NCBI RefSeq assembly: GCF_026222555.1
Contig: NZ_CP098511.1
Location: 4,321,501-4,385,500 of the forward strand
Direction of reading: 5' to 3'
DNA: 64,000 nt
DNA from: Aquimarina sp. ERC-38
Lineage (GTDB): Bacteria; Bacteroidota; Bacteroidia; Flavobacteriales; Flavobacteriaceae
Part shown: positions 21,425 through 60,911 of the stretch, piece after piece
How positions within the stretch are numbered: position 1 is the first letter of the stretch
Layout: each line of letters begins with the position of its first letter
Made by a program: the position numbers and the translations under genes
The notes under the pieces: generated by a model
The model's database searches: none
Seen by the model: only the letters and a program-made list of their open reading frames with translations
What the model was told of the DNA's origin: nothing

Positions 21425-22111
21425 TTATATTTTGAGCATTACGTTCAAATTAACATCGTTGATATTAAATTTAGCTGTTCTATTTTCAATAAATACTAGA
21501 TTACCATACATAGGTTTTCCAATAATTCCAGCAACATTATTACAAAAATCTGGGTAATCTTTTAGAATTGAATAGTTATCGTCAAAGTTTAGATATTCCT
21601 TTAAATCTTTATCTGTAATAAAATCTTTTTGTAGATTAATAACATCAATGCAAATGATCAATTTATAATTATTTAATGTTACTAAATCTCGGTATGTTTT
21701 TTCTTTATTTGTTATTTTCGATAATTGAGGAATAAAATTCGTAATTGAAGTACAATAGGAATTCTGTTGATTTCCGTAATAGCCATTTCTCTTAAACAAA
21801 TTTATTCTGTCATTTAATTCTTTCTCTATCGGGTTTATTTTTTTTACTTCAAAAATTATATTTTCACTTTCAGATTTCACCAACCAGTCAGGGGTTTTTC
21901 CATTTATTTTAGGTTCATAAATAACCTCTGAAAATAATTGATTTAAAGTATAGCCAAATTCCATTTCAGAAAAAATTGATAGTATGTTAATTTCATTTTT
22001 TTCTTTAATTAATTTCCTTGAAAATATTCCGTCATAGTTTAGATCTAAGAACTTAAGATTTCTTCTATAATCAGATTTATTATTAAGAATTTTCTTAGCT
22101 ATTTCGTTCAT
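21425..22111 (-). CDS. Unknown protein with PD-(D/E)XK nuclease-like signature
   Basis: A 228-residue cytoplasmic protein I do not recognise as a named family. A possible PD-(D/E)XK core is visible: acidic residues in a helix (Glu49/Glu51 in IFSEMEFGY), Pro74-Asp75 (KTPDWLV), then Glu88-Val89-Lys90 (IIFEVKK). This is the spacing seen in restriction-type and repair nucleases. It is lysine/asparagine rich and visibly more AT-rich than smpB and pcm on either side, hinting at horizontal gain. No methylase or toxin partner is adjacent. Nuclease activity is a hypothesis only. Confidence 0.55.
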   Translation of the reverse strand: MNEIAKKILNNKSDYRRNLKFLDLNYDGIFSRKLIKEKNEINILSIFSEMEFGYTLNQLFSEVIYEPKINGKTPDWLVKSESENIIFEVKKINPIEKELNDRINLFKRNGYYGNQQNSYCTSITNFIPQLSKITNKEKTYRDLVTLNNYKLIICIDVINLQKDFITDKDLKEYLNFDDNYSILKDYPDFCNNVAGIIGKPMYGNLVFIENRTAKFNINDVNLNVMLKI

Positions 22112-26097: not shown

Positions 26098-26167
26098 ATT
26101 TTAATGAAATTTCATTTTAACTGATACTTTTGAACAACTAATTAGAAGAAAAGTTTAAATTCAACAC

Positions 26168-26992
26168 ATAAATGTGACAGCTTAGCTGTTGATAAAAAGC
26201 CCCTACCATAGTTTTAGCCCTAGGGCTAAAACTATGGTAGAGTAGCGAAAAATCTCATACCTTTGGGTTGGAAAACTTAAAGAATATAAAGCATTTAACG
26301 CTGGAGGAAAATTACAAAATATCAGTACTTGCAAAACTTGAAATAAAAAAAGTGAAATAGCCCAGGAGTTAGGTCGAAGCCGTTCTACTATATATGCTTT
26401 ATTTGTGTAATCAGGGAAAAAAGTACTAGAAAAGAGGCGGTAAGCAGGTGGGTAGGGGGTGCATCCCTAATAGAAGGGACATAACAGAACGCCCCCCAGT
26501 AGTAGACAAAAAAGAAAGGATAGGTGACCTTGAGATTGACCTGGTGATAGGTAAAGACCATAGAGGTGCCCTTGTCACTATAAATGATAGGGCTACAGGG
26601 ATGCTAAGGATGGGACATATAGAAAACAAATCAGCCCGGGAAGTCCAGGTGAAAACGGAAGAACTACTGGAAGATTGGAAGCCTTTCATTAAAACTATTA
26701 CCAGTGACAACGGGAAGGAGTTTGCAAACCATCAGGAAATAGCAGAGGAGCTTGACATTGATTTTTACTTTGCAAAACCCTACCATAGCTGACAAAGGGG
26801 TGCCAATGAAAACCTCAACGGGCTGATAAGACAATATTTCCCAAAAGGTAGTAGCTTTGCAGAGATAACTAAGGAAGCGGTAGAGAAAGTAGAAAACATT
26901 TTAAACAATAGGCCTAGGAAAAGGTTCGGGTATAAAACACCCAATGAGGTATACGCAACTTTTATCAACAAAACGCAAACTGTCGCATTTAT
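26168..26992 (+). mobile_element. Decayed IS30-family insertion sequence
   Basis: Ends are marked by imperfect terminal inverted repeats: ATAAATGTGACAGCTT (26168-26183) against the reverse complement of 26977-26992, ATAAATGCGACAGTTT, 14 of 16 matching. Between them lies a broken IS30-type transposase. The element lacks an intact reading frame, so it is immobile unless helped in trans. No clear target duplication was found. It forms the left border of the peptide island. Confidence 0.75.
26203..26240. repeat. Perfect 38-bp palindrome
   Basis: The half CTACCATAGTTTTAGCCCT (26203-26221) is followed by its exact reverse complement with no spacer (26222-26240). It lies just inside the left terminal repeat of the IS30 remnant and before the transposase helix-turn-helix. 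As RNA it would form a 19-bp hairpin with essentially no loop. It might be a transcription stop protecting the transposase from read-through, or two inverted ends joined together. Confidence 0.9.
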
Positions 26993-26999
26993 AACTTGA
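26274..26999 (+). pseudogene. IS30-family transposase, broken
   Basis: N-terminal helix-turn-helix is readable from 26274 (LTLEENYKISVLAKLEIKK, AQELGRSRSTIYALF) but has no ATG and ends at TAA 26408-26410. The central part is deleted. The catalytic core resumes near 26448: IPNRRDITERPPVVDKKER, GDLEIDLVIGKDHRGALVTI (first Asp), TSDNGKEF (second Asp), then a TGA (26790-26792) replacing the Trp codon of YHSWQRG, after which GANENLNGLIRQYFPKG (catalytic Glu) and NNRPRKRFGYKTPNEV continue to a stop at 26997-26999. At least three inactivating lesions. Confidence 0.9.
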
Positions 27000-27071
27000 A
27001 TGTAGGTATGATAACTATCTACTCCACATTCTCAATCCCTAAGTGAAAAATTATAAATAACAATAAATAAA

Positions 27072-27106
27072 AAAGACTGCCCAAATAGTTTTTAGACAGC
27101 CTCTTT
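27072..27106 (-). terminator. Probable terminator of the peptide gene
   Basis: On the minus strand, AAAGAGGCTGTC can pair with GGCAGTCTTT with a two-base bulge, followed by TTTTTT and an AT-rich tail. It lies a few bases after the stop of the double-glycine peptide gene. Pairing is imperfect, so confidence is moderate. Confidence 0.5.
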
Positions 27107-27112
27107 GTTTTA

Positions 27113-27265
27113 CTAATAGCAAACACACATACCTCTCCAAATATAACCTCCGGTAGAACCACATCTTGAATAGCATACTCCAAAAGGTGAGGATGAACCA
27201 CCTCCATTAATAGTTTTCTGTTCTGCTTTAGATAATACTTTTCCTAAATTTTTTAGATTTTTCAT
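27113..27265 (-). CDS. Double-glycine-leader peptide precursor, four-cysteine core
   Basis: A 50-residue precursor starting at ATG 27265. A longer frame from 27306-27304 adds 13 residues that look unlike a leader. The leader MKNLKNLGKVLSKAEQKTIN ends in Gly-Gly-Gly (21-23), the cut site type used by C39 peptidase transporters; a lysine-rich amphipathic MKNLKxLGKxLSKxEQKxI leader is typical of Bacteroidota bacteriocin-like precursors. The core of about 27 residues is Ser/Gly rich with Cys31, 35, 47 and 49. The preceding same-strand gene encodes VKOR and DsbA-like domains, so disulfides are likely. Target and activity unknown. No transporter gene adjacent. Confidence 0.8.
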   Translation of the reverse strand: MKNLKNLGKVLSKAEQKTINGGGSSSPFGVCYSRCGSTGGYIWRGMCVCY

Positions 27266-27377
27266 AATATAAATTAGTATAATAGATAAGTACTTAGTGA
27301 ACATTTAAAGACACTCACATCTATGTCTATTTTTTACATATAAGGGGCTATATTCATTTTATAGTTTCATAAGTTTT

Positions 27378-28976
27378 TTATGAATATGAAAATTCAAAAT
27401 TAGCAACTAATAAATCAATCAAATCTTCTACAAAATACAGCAAATCTTTTCTTTCATACATTTCAGGAAACGACCTCCCGTTGAGTAGAATTTTAGGTGT
27501 AAAGTTTATACCATTATTCTCACACCATTCCCTTTCCTTTTCTAATATCTCAATTACATTTTTAAAATTTAAAGGTTCATTCCATTTAGAAAACCATTCC
27601 TTGACTTGGACTCCTTCGTATATGGAGTGTATTGCTTCTTTAAAAAGTTTCTCACCTTCGACATGGTAAATTTCTATTAGTCTACTCGTAACTTTTACCA
27701 AGTCACTCTGCTCATTTTTTGTACTAATATTGAATAAAACAGTAATTTGAACATTTTTGTCATATGTTTCTAAAATATTTTCCACCAAATAATGAGCTGA
27801 TTTACAATGTACACAAAACGGGTTAGTAATTAATGTAATATTGAGAGGAGCATTTCTATTACCAAAAACTATTTTAGATGAATTAATACTACTCATATCT
27901 AAGCTTTTAGAGTTTTGCAAAATAGCATTAAACAACTTAAAGTTCTTTTTAAATTTTACTGATTCAATTTTCAGTTTATTAAACTTCTGATTTTTTTTCA
28001 TACTTGAAAAAACAAGAAGCCAAATACTAATCATACTAGTTAAACTAAAAGCGAATATTAGAATAGATACTATACTGACTGTATATTCAGAAATCTCAAA
28101 ATTAGGTAATAGTATTAATTGAGCTAATAATACCGTAACAATACTTAAACAAAGTACACACCATTTGTGTAAAATGAATGCTTGATAATATAAAGAATAA
28201 ATTATCGCAGGTATTGAAGCTATGCTAAGGTAGATAAGTAAAATTGGGCTTATTCCTGTAAGACTAAATAAAAACCATATAATGCATATTGTAGAAAAGT
28301 AAATTAAGCTAATTTCACTTATCTTAATATCCTTATAAATATATGATCCTTTAGAATTTAAAACAGATCCACAGCTTACTTTTTTACTATCTTCAGAACA
28401 AACACCACTAATAAATTTAGCATCACCATTAATTTCATATTGAACAATTAGTAAACTAGTTATAACGCCAACTAATGAAAGAAGGAAATGAAAACTTTCA
28501 TAAAAGTTATTTTTAGTAATTAATACTAAAATAGCAAGTGATAGCATCGAAAGATAAAAGAAAGGCTTGGTGTAGTTCTTCTTGTTCTTTAATAAAACAT
28601 TTTCAACTGCCTCAACGATAACTACAACTCCAGTAAATTGAAGTAGAAAATCATCAAAAGAAATAGTTTTTGATATTTTTTGACTAAATATTAATGTATA
28701 ATCTGAATTTTTATTAATAACAAGAGCAAACCTAGTACCTTCCGAAGTCTTTACTTGTGCTATAAAATTTGAAGGGAGTTGAGATAATGTTGTTTTATCT
28801 AAAGGTAACTCAATTGCTAAATTTTGAATCTTAAAGTGGGTTAATACACCAGTTATTGCATGCAGACTTGGGTATGAAGGATGACTTTCAACTTGAAAAA
28901 TTAATTCTTCAGAATCAATTTTCACTTTATTTTCTTGAAGCAACCTCTCTATAACGTATGCAATTGAGTTTTTCAA
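27378..28976 (-). CDS. C39-like / VKOR / thioredoxin fusion membrane protein
   Basis: A 532-residue protein in three parts. (1) Residues 1-125 resemble the C39 peptidase fold (SHPSYPSLHAITGVL, FIAQVKTSEGTRFALVI) but have neither the catalytic Cys nor His. (2) Residues 135-325 form a VKOR-like membrane domain with several helices, cysteine pair Cys193/Cys202 (CSEDSKKVSCGSVLNSKG) and Cys273/Cys276 (KWCVLC). (3) Residues 365-525 are DsbA/thioredoxin-like with Cys388-x-x-Cys391 (NPFCVHC) and cis-Pro494 (FTPKILLNG). It should oxidise cysteines outside the membrane. The start is a TTG; an in-frame stop lies shortly upstream. The peptide precursor follows 112 bases downstream on the same strand. Confidence 0.85.
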   Translation of the reverse strand: MKNSIAYVIERLLQENKVKIDSEELIFQVESHPSYPSLHAITGVLTHFKIQNLAIELPLDKTTLSQLPSNFIAQVKTSEGTRFALVINKNSDYTLIFSQKISKTISFDDFLLQFTGVVVIVEAVENVLLKNKKNYTKPFFYLSMLSLAILVLITKNNFYESFHFLLSLVGVITSLLIVQYEINGDAKFISGVCSEDSKKVSCGSVLNSKGSYIYKDIKISEISLIYFSTICIIWFLFSLTGISPILLIYLSIASIPAIIYSLYYQAFILHKWCVLCLSIVTVLLAQLILLPNFEISEYTVSIVSILIFAFSLTSMISIWLLVFSSMKKNQKFNKLKIESVKFKKNFKLFNAILQNSKSLDMSSINSSKIVFGNRNAPLNITLITNPFCVHCKSAHYLVENILETYDKNVQITVLFNISTKNEQSDLVKVTSRLIEIYHVEGEKLFKEAIHSIYEGVQVKEWFSKWNEPLNFKNVIEILEKEREWCENNGINFTPKILLNGRSFPEMYERKDLLYFVEDLIDLLVANFEFSYS

Positions 28977-29151: not shown

Positions 29152-30047
29152 TCATAATCCTGTAATGTTAGCAATGACTAATCTTTCGAAGAGTTCATCT
29201 TTGAAGTACCTTCAATTAAGTTTGTAGACAAATTCATTAAGGTAGAGCTGTAGGTACTTGCCTTTAATTTTATGGTAGTTAACCAGTAGGTTCCTTTTAG
29301 CATTGCTAATAAAGATGTGTACCCCTTTAGTGTTTCTTTGGTAGATTTTTCTGTAATGTGTAGCTCTACATAGTCTGCAATATCAATGTACGAAGTACTC
29401 TCATCGGTAAATTCAATACTTTTTTCATCCAGTGAGCCTTTTATGGTATCTTTTACTTCTTGGGATTTGTGGGTGTTAAGTACCTTTGCTTTAAAATAGC
29501 GATCTTGCTTGGATACTTTCCCTATGTTCGGATCTTCTAAAGGGGTGCTCTCAGACATTACCGCTACGTTTTGTTTGCCCGCTGTACCACGGCCACGTTT
29601 TGCCTTAGATTGCTCTAACTCTGAGGGTTCAACAGTAAAATAACCTTCGTTCATCTCTATCATTCCTTCTAGACTATATCTAGCATCACGGTTGCCCATT
29701 GCTATTCGTAGTTTATGAGTCATTGCCCAAACAGGTTCATAACGTTTTAACCCTAATTGGCGTTACATTTCTTTGGATGAAAAACTTTTCTTTGTCGTAC
29801 TCATTAAAAACATAGCCCGGTACCATATTAAAAAAGAAAGGTTAGAGTTTTGCATGATCGTACCACTTCGAAGTGAGGTACGGCTACGGCAAGACTTACA
29901 TTCGTAGCTCCACCTGCTTTTGATCCAGTAGTGCTTATCACCACCACACCTATGGCAAATTACCCCAATCTTATCACATTGTTCTTTAAAATGTTCCCTA
30001 CAGGTGTCTTCATCCCCAAAGTGGGCAGTAAAAGTAAATATGTTCAT
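29152..30047 (-). pseudogene. IS1595-family (ISXO2-like) transposase, broken
   Basis: Read from 30047: zinc ribbon with CHRCGGDKHYWI and YECKSCRSRTSLRSGT, then WYRAMFLMSTTKKSFSSKEM, a TAA in place of a Gln codon, and in the same frame RQLGLKRYEPVWAM, NEGYFTVEPSE and GRGTAGKQNVAV (DDE core). Near 29322 one base is lost from an expected Lys-Trp-Val-His codon run; the other frame continues VHIFISNAKRNLLVNYHKIK and YLQLYLNEFVYKLN, a TGA, then RYFKDELFERLV. Three lesions make it inactive. Element ends could not be fixed. It borders the peptide island on the right. Confidence 0.88.
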
Positions 30048-30229
30048 GTCTGCTACTATCTTATAATCAATACAATACACAAAATTATAGGCAATTATGG
30101 ATATTCAAAAATTAAAATAACAATTTGGAACTAGACTTCTAAAACAGTAAACTAATATAAATTTTAAAAGAAGTTATGATCTCTTTTAATTATCTGCTAT
30201 TTTTACGGGATTGTCAAAACCAAAAACCT

Positions 30230-30916
30230 ATGTCGGTAACACCGGTACTTCATCTATCTAAAGCTTCTATTTATCAAAGAGATAATCTAATTTTATCAGA
30301 CGTAAATGTTACGGTTCATAAAGGTGATTTTGTATATCTGATTGGTAAGACCGGAACCGGGAAGAGTAGTTTTATGAAAACCCTGTACGGTGATATTCCG
30401 TTTACAGAAGGTGAAGGGACTATCGTGGATTTTGATTTATCTACGTTAAAAGAAAGTCAAATTCCTTATTTACGAAGAAAATTAGGGATTGTATTTCAGG
30501 ATTTTAAATTATTAAATGACCGGACGATAAAAGATAACTTGCTTTTTGTATTAAAAGCAACCGGTTGGACGGATCAAAAAGGTATGTCTAGTAAAATAGA
30601 TGAGGTTTTAGGTAAAGTAGGAATGAAAACCAAAGATTTTAAGTTCCCTTATCAATTATCCGGCGGCGAACAACAGCGAATTGCTATCGCCAGATCCTTA
30701 TTAAATGATCCGGAATTAATTTTGGCTGATGAACCTACCGGGAATCTTGACCCTCAAACTTCGGTGGAAGTGATGGAGGTATTACAAGAAATAAATAAAA
30801 ACGGAAACACTATTTTAATGGCTACGCATGACTATGCTTTGTTATTAAAATATCCCTCTAAGACCTTAAAATGCGAAGGCAATAAGGTGTTTGAAGTAGT
30901 ACAGCGTAAAGAATAA
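30230..30916 (+). CDS. ftsE: FtsE-type ABC ATPase
   Basis: A 228-residue ATPase from ATG 30230 ([16 protein letters not shown]); the open frame extends upstream to 30176 but those 18 residues are not conserved-looking. Walker [11 protein letters not shown], signature [16 protein letters not shown], Walker [15 protein letters not shown]-loop ATHDY. FtsE with FtsX links peptidoglycan hydrolases to cell division. No ftsX is adjacent, as I recall for many Flavobacteriales. A methyltransferase gene follows after 15 bases. Confidence 0.85.
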
Positions 30917-58228: not shown

Positions 58229-59398
58229 ATGAACACAACACAATTATTAAGGTACGCAAGGTTATCTACTCTAAGTCTAGGTTTATTAGTGGCTTCCTGT
58301 ACGCAAAATGCTAATGATGAAATTGAAGAAACCGAAGTAAACATAATTACAGAAGGACCTATTGTCAAAAGATATTTTGGCGAAGAACTACTGGAAGGTG
58401 TGGATCTGGGTGATGGTACGTATAAAATTTACGGTGATGTCATTGTAGATGAGAATCAGTTTACGGAAAACGCCATAAAATCCAGAGTTGATTTAGAACC
58501 GGATGCTCAGGTTGAGAACAAACTTGCATTATTAGGAGGTGTAAGAAAATGGACTAACAACACGATGGTATACCGTTTAGAAAATTTAAATTCTTTTGTA
58601 AGAGATGAGCTTTTTAAATCTATGAAGGTTTGGGAAGATAATACGAATATCCGCTTTAAAGAATATACCGGTAGTGAAGCTAACTACGTTACCATTCGTT
58701 CTAATGGTGATAATTGTAATTGTGGTTCTGCCAACTTAGGGATGAATGGTTCTCGTGGAGTTATGAACTTAGGTACACGAACTTCTGCGGTAGTTATTAT
58801 TCATGAAATTGGTCATAATTTAGGTTATATCCATGAACAAACCAGGTCTGACCGTGATCAGCACGTAAAAATCCTTTTTGAAAATATTCAGAATGGTGCG
58901 GAAAGCCAATTTAGAAAAAATACAAATTCTGATAACCTAGGTGAATTTGATATTCTATCCACTATGATGTACGGTAATTTTACCTTTAGTAAAAACGGAA
59001 AACCTACTATTACCAGACTGGACGGAAGTTCTTATCCTAGAAGACAGGCAAAGCTTTCTGCAGGAGACATTGCCAATACGAATCAGGCTTATCCTGGCTC
59101 AACCGTAGATCCGGATCCGGATAAAGATATTTGTGCAGGTATTGCAGAATGGGTACGAGGCAGAAGATATCAGGTAGGAGATAAAGTTACCTACAGAGGG
59201 TTTTTATTTGAAAGGGATTTTAGTCAATGGAATCGTTTAGGACAATGTGGAGTTGTAGAAGAAATCCAGGATCCTTGTGAAGGTGTGGATGCATTTAATA
59301 GCAATAGAACCTATAACCCCGGAGACCAGGTTACTTACAGAGGTTTTATTTACATAAAATTAAACAGAGGTTGGAGACAAGAAGGTCAATGTTTATAA
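58229..59398 (+). CDS. Astacin-family (M12A) metalloprotease lipoprotein, first copy
   Basis: A 389-residue flavastacin-like protein. Lipobox LVASC (Cys24) then a low-complexity linker and a pro-region. The zinc site HEIGHNLGYIHE (His192, Glu193, His196, His202) and Met-turn STMMYG (about 244-249) are complete; Cys163 and Cys165 (CNCG) precede the zinc helix. Two Cys-bounded modules follow: 302-340 (EWVRGRRYQVGDKVTYRG) and 350-388 (RTYNPGDQVTYRGFIY), like chitin-binding type 3 (CBM5/12) folds. Predicted outer-membrane or surface protease with glycan-binding tails. Paralog of the next gene. Confidence 0.93.
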   Translation: MNTTQLLRYARLSTLSLGLLVASCTQNANDEIEETEVNIITEGPIVKRYFGEELLEGVDLGDGTYKIYGDVIVDENQFTENAIKSRVDLEPDAQVENKLALLGGVRKWTNNTMVYRLENLNSFVRDELFKSMKVWEDNTNIRFKEYTGSEANYVTIRSNGDNCNCGSANLGMNGSRGVMNLGTRTSAVVIIHEIGHNLGYIHEQTRSDRDQHVKILFENIQNGAESQFRKNTNSDNLGEFDILSTMMYGNFTFSKNGKPTITRLDGSSYPRRQAKLSAGDIANTNQAYPGSTVDPDPDKDICAGIAEWVRGRRYQVGDKVTYRGFLFERDFSQWNRLGQCGVVEEIQDPCEGVDAFNSNRTYNPGDQVTYRGFIYIKLNRGWRQEGQCL

Positions 59399-59753: not shown

Positions 59754-60911
59754 ATGAAAAAAACTCAACTACTAAAATTAACCAAAGTTTCACTTTTAAG
59801 CATTGGATTGTTCCTGACATCCTGTAGTAACGACGAAAACAATGAAATACCGGAAGAAGTCGGTACCGAAGTCAAGCTAGTTCAAAAATACTTTGGAGAC
59901 CAACTGGTAATGGTTACGGAAGGTGAAAACGGAACCTGGATTGCTGATGACATGCAGTTTTTTAAGGAGCAGTTATCTGATAATCCGGTTAGTTCTGAAC
60001 TGGAAAAAGCTCCGGATGCAGTGAATACTGATAAATTGGCACTGGCAAGTTATGCGGTGAAATGGTCAAATAGCACTGTGGTTTATCGATGGGGAAGCTT
60101 GAATAGTCGTCTTCGTTCTGAGACTAAAAAAGCTATGAACGAATGGAGCTCCAAGACGAATATACGTTTTAAAGAAAGAACTAACGAGGCTACGTATGTA
60201 ACCATTCAGGAAACCACCAGGACCTGTGATGGTTGCGGTTTTGCTACGATAGGTTCCAGAGGAAGTAGCGGAACGCTTAATTTAGGTAAAAATGCCTCTG
60301 CTGCTTTAATTGCACACGAATTTGGGCATACTTTAGGTTTTTTACATGAACAAACACGTCCTGATAGAGACGATTATGTAAAAGTTTTATTTGAAAATAT
60401 CCAGCAAGGTAAAGAAGGGAACTTTAGAAAAACAAATAGCGCGTTACGTACTACAAAAAAGTTTGATATGAAATCTATCATGATGTATCATCCATATGCC
60501 TTTACTAATAAAAGAGGCGTCCCTACTATTGTTGACATAAATACAGGAAAAGCATATACCGGAGCGCAACGTACCATCTCACCTTTGGATATTGAAGGTA
60601 CAAATAAGGTATACCCAAGAAAAACTGTAGATCCGAATCCGGACATTTGTAGAAATGTTGCCGAATGGGTTAGTGGAAAAACATATAACGTAGGGGATCG
60701 AGTTACTTACCGTGGTTCTTTGTATGAAGCGGACTTTAACAAATGGAACCGTATCGGAAGTTGCGGACAAACTGAAATTACTGATCCGTGTGCCGGAGTA
60801 GCAAGTTTTCAAAACGGAAAGAGTTATGCTACTGGCGAACAAGTACGCTACAACGGATACGTATATACAAAATTAAGCAGAGGTTGGAAACAGGAAGGAA
60901 AGTGTAACTAA
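59754..60911 (+). CDS. Astacin-family (M12A) metalloprotease lipoprotein, second copy
   Basis: A 385-residue paralog of the preceding gene with identical layout. Lipobox LTSC (Cys24); zinc site HEFGHTLGFLHE (His188, Glu189, His192, His198); Met-turn SIMMYHP (241-247); Cys158 and Cys161 (CDGC). The two C-terminal modules are EWVSGKTYNVGDRVTYRG (from Cys299) and KSYATGEQVRYNGYVY (from Cys346). The mature domains are clearly related but diverged, so substrate ranges may differ. Followed by a terminator and an AraC-type gene. Confidence 0.93.
   Translation: MKKTQLLKLTKVSLLSIGLFLTSCSNDENNEIPEEVGTEVKLVQKYFGDQLVMVTEGENGTWIADDMQFFKEQLSDNPVSSELEKAPDAVNTDKLALASYAVKWSNSTVVYRWGSLNSRLRSETKKAMNEWSSKTNIRFKERTNEATYVTIQETTRTCDGCGFATIGSRGSSGTLNLGKNASAALIAHEFGHTLGFLHEQTRPDRDDYVKVLFENIQQGKEGNFRKTNSALRTTKKFDMKSIMMYHPYAFTNKRGVPTIVDINTGKAYTGAQRTISPLDIEGTNKVYPRKTVDPNPDICRNVAEWVSGKTYNVGDRVTYRGSLYEADFNKWNRIGSCGQTEITDPCAGVASFQNGKSYATGEQVRYNGYVYTKLSRGWKQEGKCN

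Follow-up and report, generated by a model that had tools for sequence, protein, structure and literature searches.

The window, by which we mean the whole 64,000-nucleotide stretch of Aquimarina sp. ERC-38 DNA analysed here (contig NZ_CP098511.1, positions 4,321,501 to 4,385,500), carries two adjacent genes on its minus strand. The first (27378..28976) opens with a TTG start codon and encodes a 532-residue fusion protein in which a pseudo-C39 domain, an extra transmembrane (TM) helix, a VKOR core, a TM segment and a DsbA-like domain follow one another. The second (27113..27265) encodes a 50-residue precursor whose leader (27200-27265) and core with four cysteines (27116-27199) are followed by the stop codon (27113-27115). 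The original prediction had placed VKOR cysteines at residues 193/202 and 273/276 of the fusion, a CVHC at 388-391 and, 112 bases downstream on the same strand, a precursor with a double-glycine (GG) leader and four core cysteines, and all of these lie where it put them. A terminator-like hairpin of 16 pairs (27070..27106, minus strand) stands just 3′ of the precursor gene; its folding energy of -17.9 kcal/mol (z -4.86) was matched by 0 of 200 shuffles. Some 90 bp past the precursor gene lies an IS30-family element (26155..27021) that contains a transposase fragment and has lost about 267 bp internally; its right part has 11 further copies in the genome at 96-97% identity and its left part stands at 84-85%, so that this copy looks mosaic, and the family recurs at roughly a dozen genomic sites. 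On the upstream side of the fusion a broken IS1595-family transposase extends over 29178..30080 (minus strand) as two ORFs (29178-29723 and 29763-30080). Rfam gave zero matches above gathering thresholds over the window. Elsewhere in the window we observed two tandem lipoprotein-like proteases whose translations contain HExxH motifs (58229-59398 and 59754-60911, plus strand) and a 228-residue ORF (21425-22111, minus strand) that matched nothing in Pfam above cut-off and nothing in NCBIfam at E ≤ 1.

Pfam profiles and fold comparison agree on the three-domain make-up that had been predicted for the fusion. The VKOR profile (PF07884) matches above its cut-off (4.6e-13) with the four redox cysteines, 193/202 and 273/276, present in the translation, and Thioredoxin_4 (PF13462) matches at 7.9e-7 with its CXXC present as C388-V-H-C391. 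Peptidase_C39 (PF03412) reached 9e-4 and 19.5 bits over profile positions 17-130, below its 22-bit cut-off, and the same place scored 23.9 in the genome search, which leaves it borderline. The AlphaFold2 model, built from 92 sequences, has a mean pLDDT of 87.2 and a pTM of 0.66, at which the placement of the domains relative to one another is uncertain. Structural comparison of this model by VIA-align relates residues 1-125/131 to C39 peptidases, including the leader-bound 6mpz, residues 157-297 to VKORs, with superposition on the Synechococcus VKOR, and residues 355-523 to ScsC/DsbA. We therefore delimit a C39 peptidase fold lacking the active-site cysteine and proposed as a leader dock (residues 1-121; 28614..28976, minus strand), a VKOR core with Cys193/202 and Cys273/276 (residues 157-297; 28086..28508, minus strand) and a DsbA/ScsC-like thioredoxin domain with the CVHC (residues 355-523; 27408..27914, minus strand). 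Fold comparison outdid the profile search of solved structures, in which the whole fusion found thioredoxin as its sole match and the VKOR piece alone found a VKOR-like protein at E 0.58. As hhalign of the N-domain against true C39 domains was poor (Prob 32.8 over 38 columns), the sequence-profile link is weak and the C39 identity of this domain rests on the fold match. All six redox cysteines are kept in 110/110 fusion homologs.

The precursor leader is 22 residues long and ends in NGG, leaving a core of 28 residues if cleaved after GG, close to the approximately 27 foreseen. It agrees with the double-glycine leader consensus derived from position counts in 448 leaders, and its cleavage by a C39 peptidase is putative. 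We scanned for small ORFs with the motif L/M/I/F at -12, Q/M/L/I/F at -7, I/V/L/M at -4 and a terminal GG; the precursor is the only one in the 64-kb window even without a cysteine requirement, and a first-order Markov control built from the relatives' loci gave 3 motif matches with at least 3 cysteines in 2926 kb. Together the scan and the control rule out that the precursor is a chance ORF without a leader. The end of the leader also resembles NCBIfam NF047798 (leader_Chryseo) at 18.7 bits (E 0.0014), below the 23.5-bit cut-off. The genome holds one copy of the precursor. A protein search with it matched 14 others, in each case via the leader and at E values from 5.6e-4 to 0.058, and found the core nowhere else; compared with the other cores, its best score was 57, which is not significant given that 40 shuffles averaged 48.6 (sd 4.0) and reached 59. 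Other genomes do carry precursors whose leaders are nearly identical to this one, which speaks for conservation of the peptide gene.

The pairing of fusion and precursor is conserved. Our first set comprised 51 fusion loci, taken at about 20 kb apiece unless the contig ended sooner, from a search of 299 family genomes, 40 of which contain the fusion (E ≤ 1e-10, own genome included). The second comprised 79 loci out of 143 confirmed stretches from a scan with alignment A1 (the same scan with a single fusion protein as query returned no relative); five fusions are identical in both sets, and the second fusion in L054 was excluded from the pairing counts. GG-leader ORFs with at least 3 core cysteines whose start lies no more than 500 bp downstream on the fusion's strand number 39 at the 51 loci and 93 at the 79 loci, with 0 on the opposite strand, a density of 1.55 and 2.40 per kb versus 0.007-0.027 per kb at 2-8/9 kb upstream. 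Within 2 kb downstream such an ORF is found on the same strand at 35/51 loci of the first set, and at 68/79 loci of the second; within 5 kb on any side the first set gives 44/51, leaving seven loci with none. The first gap from fusion to peptide is 75-138 nt at 26 of those 35 loci, making the 112 nt of the window typical. The survey thus bears out that GG-leader genes lie beside most fusion homologs. Both sets together hold 425 distinct cores, about 89% of them with an even cysteine count in a collection pre-filtered at 3 or more cysteines (322/354 in the second set), and within loci leaders share an identity of 0.66 versus 0.21 for the hypervariable cores (400 sampled pairs).

Up to 16 same-strand precursors occur in one second-set locus, and in Tenacibaculum and related genomes one-strand arrays of 13-16 hypervariable cysteine-rich GG-leader peptides lie beside the fusion (L099, L101, L107, L110, L115). 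One genome, G059, has three separate fusion/exporter/peptide copies (L069, L070, L071) with near-identical exporters and different peptide sets. A TPR-CHAT protein stands directly upstream of the fusion in 36/131 loci (for example L091:5832-7946), the one member checked by Pfam giving CHAT at 7e-50, and a response-regulator cluster is upstream in 17 loci. Two fusion copies, in G179:C13 (L037) and G297:C36 (L046), have stop codons inside the match.

In the 83 C39 exporters compared, the DCG motif, the His and the Asp are nearly invariant. At these columns the fusions lack the catalytic Cys/His/Asp set, as they also do when 13 of them are aligned with 4 exporters, in line with the predicted inactivity of the domain. 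Position 4 of the fusions is mostly T or S, and a His stands at column 82 in 9/92. Four divergent fusions (L052, L054, L056, L061) have a Cys at residue 4-5, although the positions aligned with the catalytic His and Asp hold neither residue; the retained Cys suggests descent from an active peptidase. Covariation between leaders and domains is weak and unspecific overall, with partial Mantel r of 0.11 for pseudo-C39 (reached by 12/500 permutations), 0.21 for the linker plus thioredoxin domain (0/500) and -0.15 for VKOR. Across 99 nonredundant loci, L, Y or I at fusion position 39 goes with L or M at leader position -7 in 11/12 cases and H, K, Q or N with Q in 79/86, an association that is clade-linked and hence only suggestive.

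The original prediction noted that no C39 ABC exporter or HlyD adjoins the pair. Indeed, when the window was searched with exporter, HlyD and TolC queries from its own genome, the sole match was the ABC domain of an FtsE-like gene (30290-30847). A C39-ABC exporter lies near the fusion in 34/51 first-set loci, with HlyD in all 34, and in 52/79 second-set loci, with HlyD in 49. Loci without a local exporter (17/51 and 27/79, some of them cut by contig ends) are therefore common, and the description of this locus as an unusually reduced form finds no support in that wording, the more so since an exporter of the same family is encoded elsewhere in the genome. The genome profile search returned two full C39-ABC ORFs. 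One, at C1:1458787 in L006, combines a C39 domain with ABC membrane and ABC ATPase domains and has an adjoining HlyD; its identity to the fusion-linked exporters has a median of 71%, with best matches at 74-78%, and in a quick tree it nests among them beside L051 with support 87. The other is less than 30% identical to fusion-linked exporters. In L006 (G000:C1:1449001-1469000) the exporter and HlyD adjoin a GG peptide and an apparent peptide maturation cluster, which we take to be grasp-type; L005 (G000:C1:1584001-1604000) holds the second C39-ABC, a further ABC protein and HlyD- and TolC-like genes, presumably an NHLM-type system. In eight further genomes whose fusion locus lacks an adjacent exporter, long C39 ORFs occur elsewhere in seven, and in the eighth (G200) the C39 search showed the fusion itself only. 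For the genome studied here, a truly exporter-free minimal system is ruled out by the two C39-ABC ORFs, one of them from the fusion-linked clade. Because an exporter of that clade is present, export in trans by the L006 exporter is possible on sequence grounds; that it adjoins a different GG peptide counts against the assignment. The reduction thus appears mostly local, the exporter missing at the locus and present elsewhere in the genome.

The state of the locus raises an alternative that we regard as tentative, namely that this copy is a decaying remnant whose ORFs are intact but whose working export was lost through insertion sequences. The closest relatives, in Lacinutrix and Bizionia, retain an adjacent exporter, the IS30 element and the broken IS1595 pieces flank the pair, and there is a single peptide gene, all of which would fit such a loss. 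Against it, none of the six redox cysteines is missing, the leader is whole, a terminator follows the pair and the related exporter is available in trans.

The original prediction had the fusion act at the membrane and left the side open. In the AlphaFold2 model the TM helices span 136-154, 158-183, 219-240, 245-269, 274-288 and 302-322, the last being the start of a longer helix, and these six put the N-domain, the Cys193/202 loop, the CXXC and the thioredoxin domain on one side. Helix 136-154 (28515..28571, minus strand), supported by the model, by hydropathy and by the start of the VKOR match, is an addition N-terminal to the VKOR core, because that match begins only at 157, and gives one helix more than canonical VKORs have. 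By the positive-inside rule the K/R-rich side of a membrane protein is cytoplasmic. In 92 fusions the shared side has a mean of 13.2 K/R (9-19) and the other side 1.2 (0-3), and a second alignment gave the same bias in K/R density in 110/110 fusions. With alignment-mapped boundaries 19/19 canonical Bacteroidota VKORs have the excess on the opposite side, which none of 16 fusions does; the 19 controls, several of them nearly identical to one another, were what remained of 30 VKOR loci once fusions, loci read in the wrong frame and those with unclear cuts had been set aside. These boundaries replaced an automatic TM cutting without alignment, which was noisier and placed the excess on the shared side in 75/92 and 37/51 fusions, and on the opposite side in 12/19 canonical VKORs with 5/19 the other way; we read most of the exceptions as mis-cut helices. 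From the reversed charge bias and the extra helix we infer that the cytoplasm is the most likely side for the pseudo-C39 domain and every redox site, the charge bias being an orientation prediction only, and the precursor would therefore be oxidised before export.

VKOR and DsbA-type domains normally act outside the cytoplasm, and a second alternative keeps this canonical orientation for the same client, with VKOR, thioredoxin and pseudo-C39 domains all periplasmic and the peptide oxidised during or after export. Its VKOR core does superpose on the Synechococcus enzyme, and the authors of the bacteroidetocin study read the bacteroidetocin regions, which include a thiol oxidoreductase, as serving disulfide formation in secreted peptides (PMC6671954). 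We nevertheless find it improbable. Some 135 N-terminal residues would have to be translocated, and no signal sequence is obvious ahead of the N-domain (a crude hydropathy measure over residues 1-40 rises above 2.0 in 9/110 fusions). The predicted charge bias argues against a periplasmic redox side such as that of canonical bacterial VKORs, as 13 K/R would lie outside versus 1 inside, opposite to 19/19 of them, and a leader dock outside would meet no leader if the C39 exporter cuts inside. A mixed topology, with pseudo-C39 cytoplasmic, the redox sites periplasmic and helix 136-154 non-spanning, would make the protein an export-coupled chaperone and oxidase and would preserve both the leader dock and the usual VKOR orientation while accommodating the linked GG-leader ORFs; we hold this for quite unlikely, since segment 140-153 ranks first among the six segments in family hydropathy (2.63) and is helical in the model, and the K/R-rich stretch past the last TM helix would end up outside. 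Finally, a general envelope disulfide oxidase adjoining a small gene by chance, for which one might cite that the fusion is the only VKOR above cut-off in the genome and that no DsbB was found there, is dismissed as highly improbable on the strong linkage to GG-leader precursors and the patchy presence in 40/299 family genomes (E ≤ 1e-10), canonical VKORs moreover lacking the N-domain.

We somewhat favour a model in which the fusion serves double-glycine precursors as their dedicated oxidase, docking the leader and oxidising the core on the cytoplasmic side before a separate export step. The pseudo-C39 N-domain would dock the leader in the cytoplasm without cutting it, bringing the core to the DsbA-like domain on the same membrane face, which would oxidise its cysteines. 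From there Cys193/202 and Cys273/276 may relay the electrons to membrane quinone, with the VKOR core inverted relative to canonical VKORs owing to the extra N-terminal helix. A C39-ABC/HlyD exporter, for this genome presumably the one at C1:1458787 acting in trans, would then take over the oxidised precursor and cut off its leader, and the product may be an antagonistic or signalling peptide. That the genome yielded one VKOR and no DsbB also counts in favour of this model. The domains, the pairing, the cysteines, the lost C39 active site and the reversed charge bias are supported by sequence comparison and modelling, and the dedicated oxidation role that had been proposed gains support from the conserved pairing with cysteine-rich GG-leader precursors together with the domains. 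Disulfide formation in the reducing cytoplasm is unusual; most bacteria make disulfides outside. A VKOR pair of Aeropyrum pernix, which Hibender reportedly described in 2017, is said to provide a precedent for VKOR acting in a cytoplasmic compartment; it reportedly belongs to an archaeal hyperthermophile and has no link to a peptide export system.

The arrangement shares parts with several known systems. The Synechococcus VKOR type has a VKOR core and a C-terminal thioredoxin/DsbA-like domain in identical order with the same four VKOR cysteines, whereas the fusion has a pseudo-C39 domain and an extra TM helix in front and a reversed charge bias. The C39 domains of PCAT/AMS exporters, including leader-bound 6mpz, and the C39-like domains of type I secretion exporters have a fold in common with the N-domain, which unlike them has lost the active-site set and is joined to an oxidase rather than an ABC transporter. 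The nearest tested system is that of the bacteroidetocins (class IIf) of Bacteroides, which keeps genes for the peptide, a thiol oxidoreductase, a TM protein and a C39-ABC together, loses activity in part when the peptide, oxidoreductase or TM gene is deleted, and has disulfides supported by gel shift (PMC6671954). The common ground is the GG leader, the four-cysteine peptides, the thiol oxidoreductase and the C39-ABC exporter; the bacteroidetocin region has a separate five-TM protein and thiol oxidoreductase gene, compared here with the fusion by description, whereas our system has one fused protein, hypervariable cores and, by our reading, cytoplasmic oxidation. The window, with one fused oxidase and without an exporter gene, does not hold the four-gene bacteroidetocin set, and antibacterial activity of its peptide is putative. 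In a literature search of partial coverage we recognised no description of this pseudo-C39/VKOR/DsbA-like fusion.

Beyond the single locus, we give an even chance to the existence in Bacteroidota of a family of inverted, cytoplasm-facing VKOR-DsbA oxidases, in which a dead C39 protease would serve as leader receptor and hypervariable precursors would be oxidised before export, coupled to quinone. If true, this would be a mesophilic bacterial case of leader-guided enzymatic disulfide formation on the cytoplasmic face of the membrane, and would explain how Gram-negative bacteria could export cystine-rich peptides that are already folded. With 425 distinct cores at the loci surveyed, it would also suggest that marine Bacteroidota hold a large stock of such peptides that has been little described.
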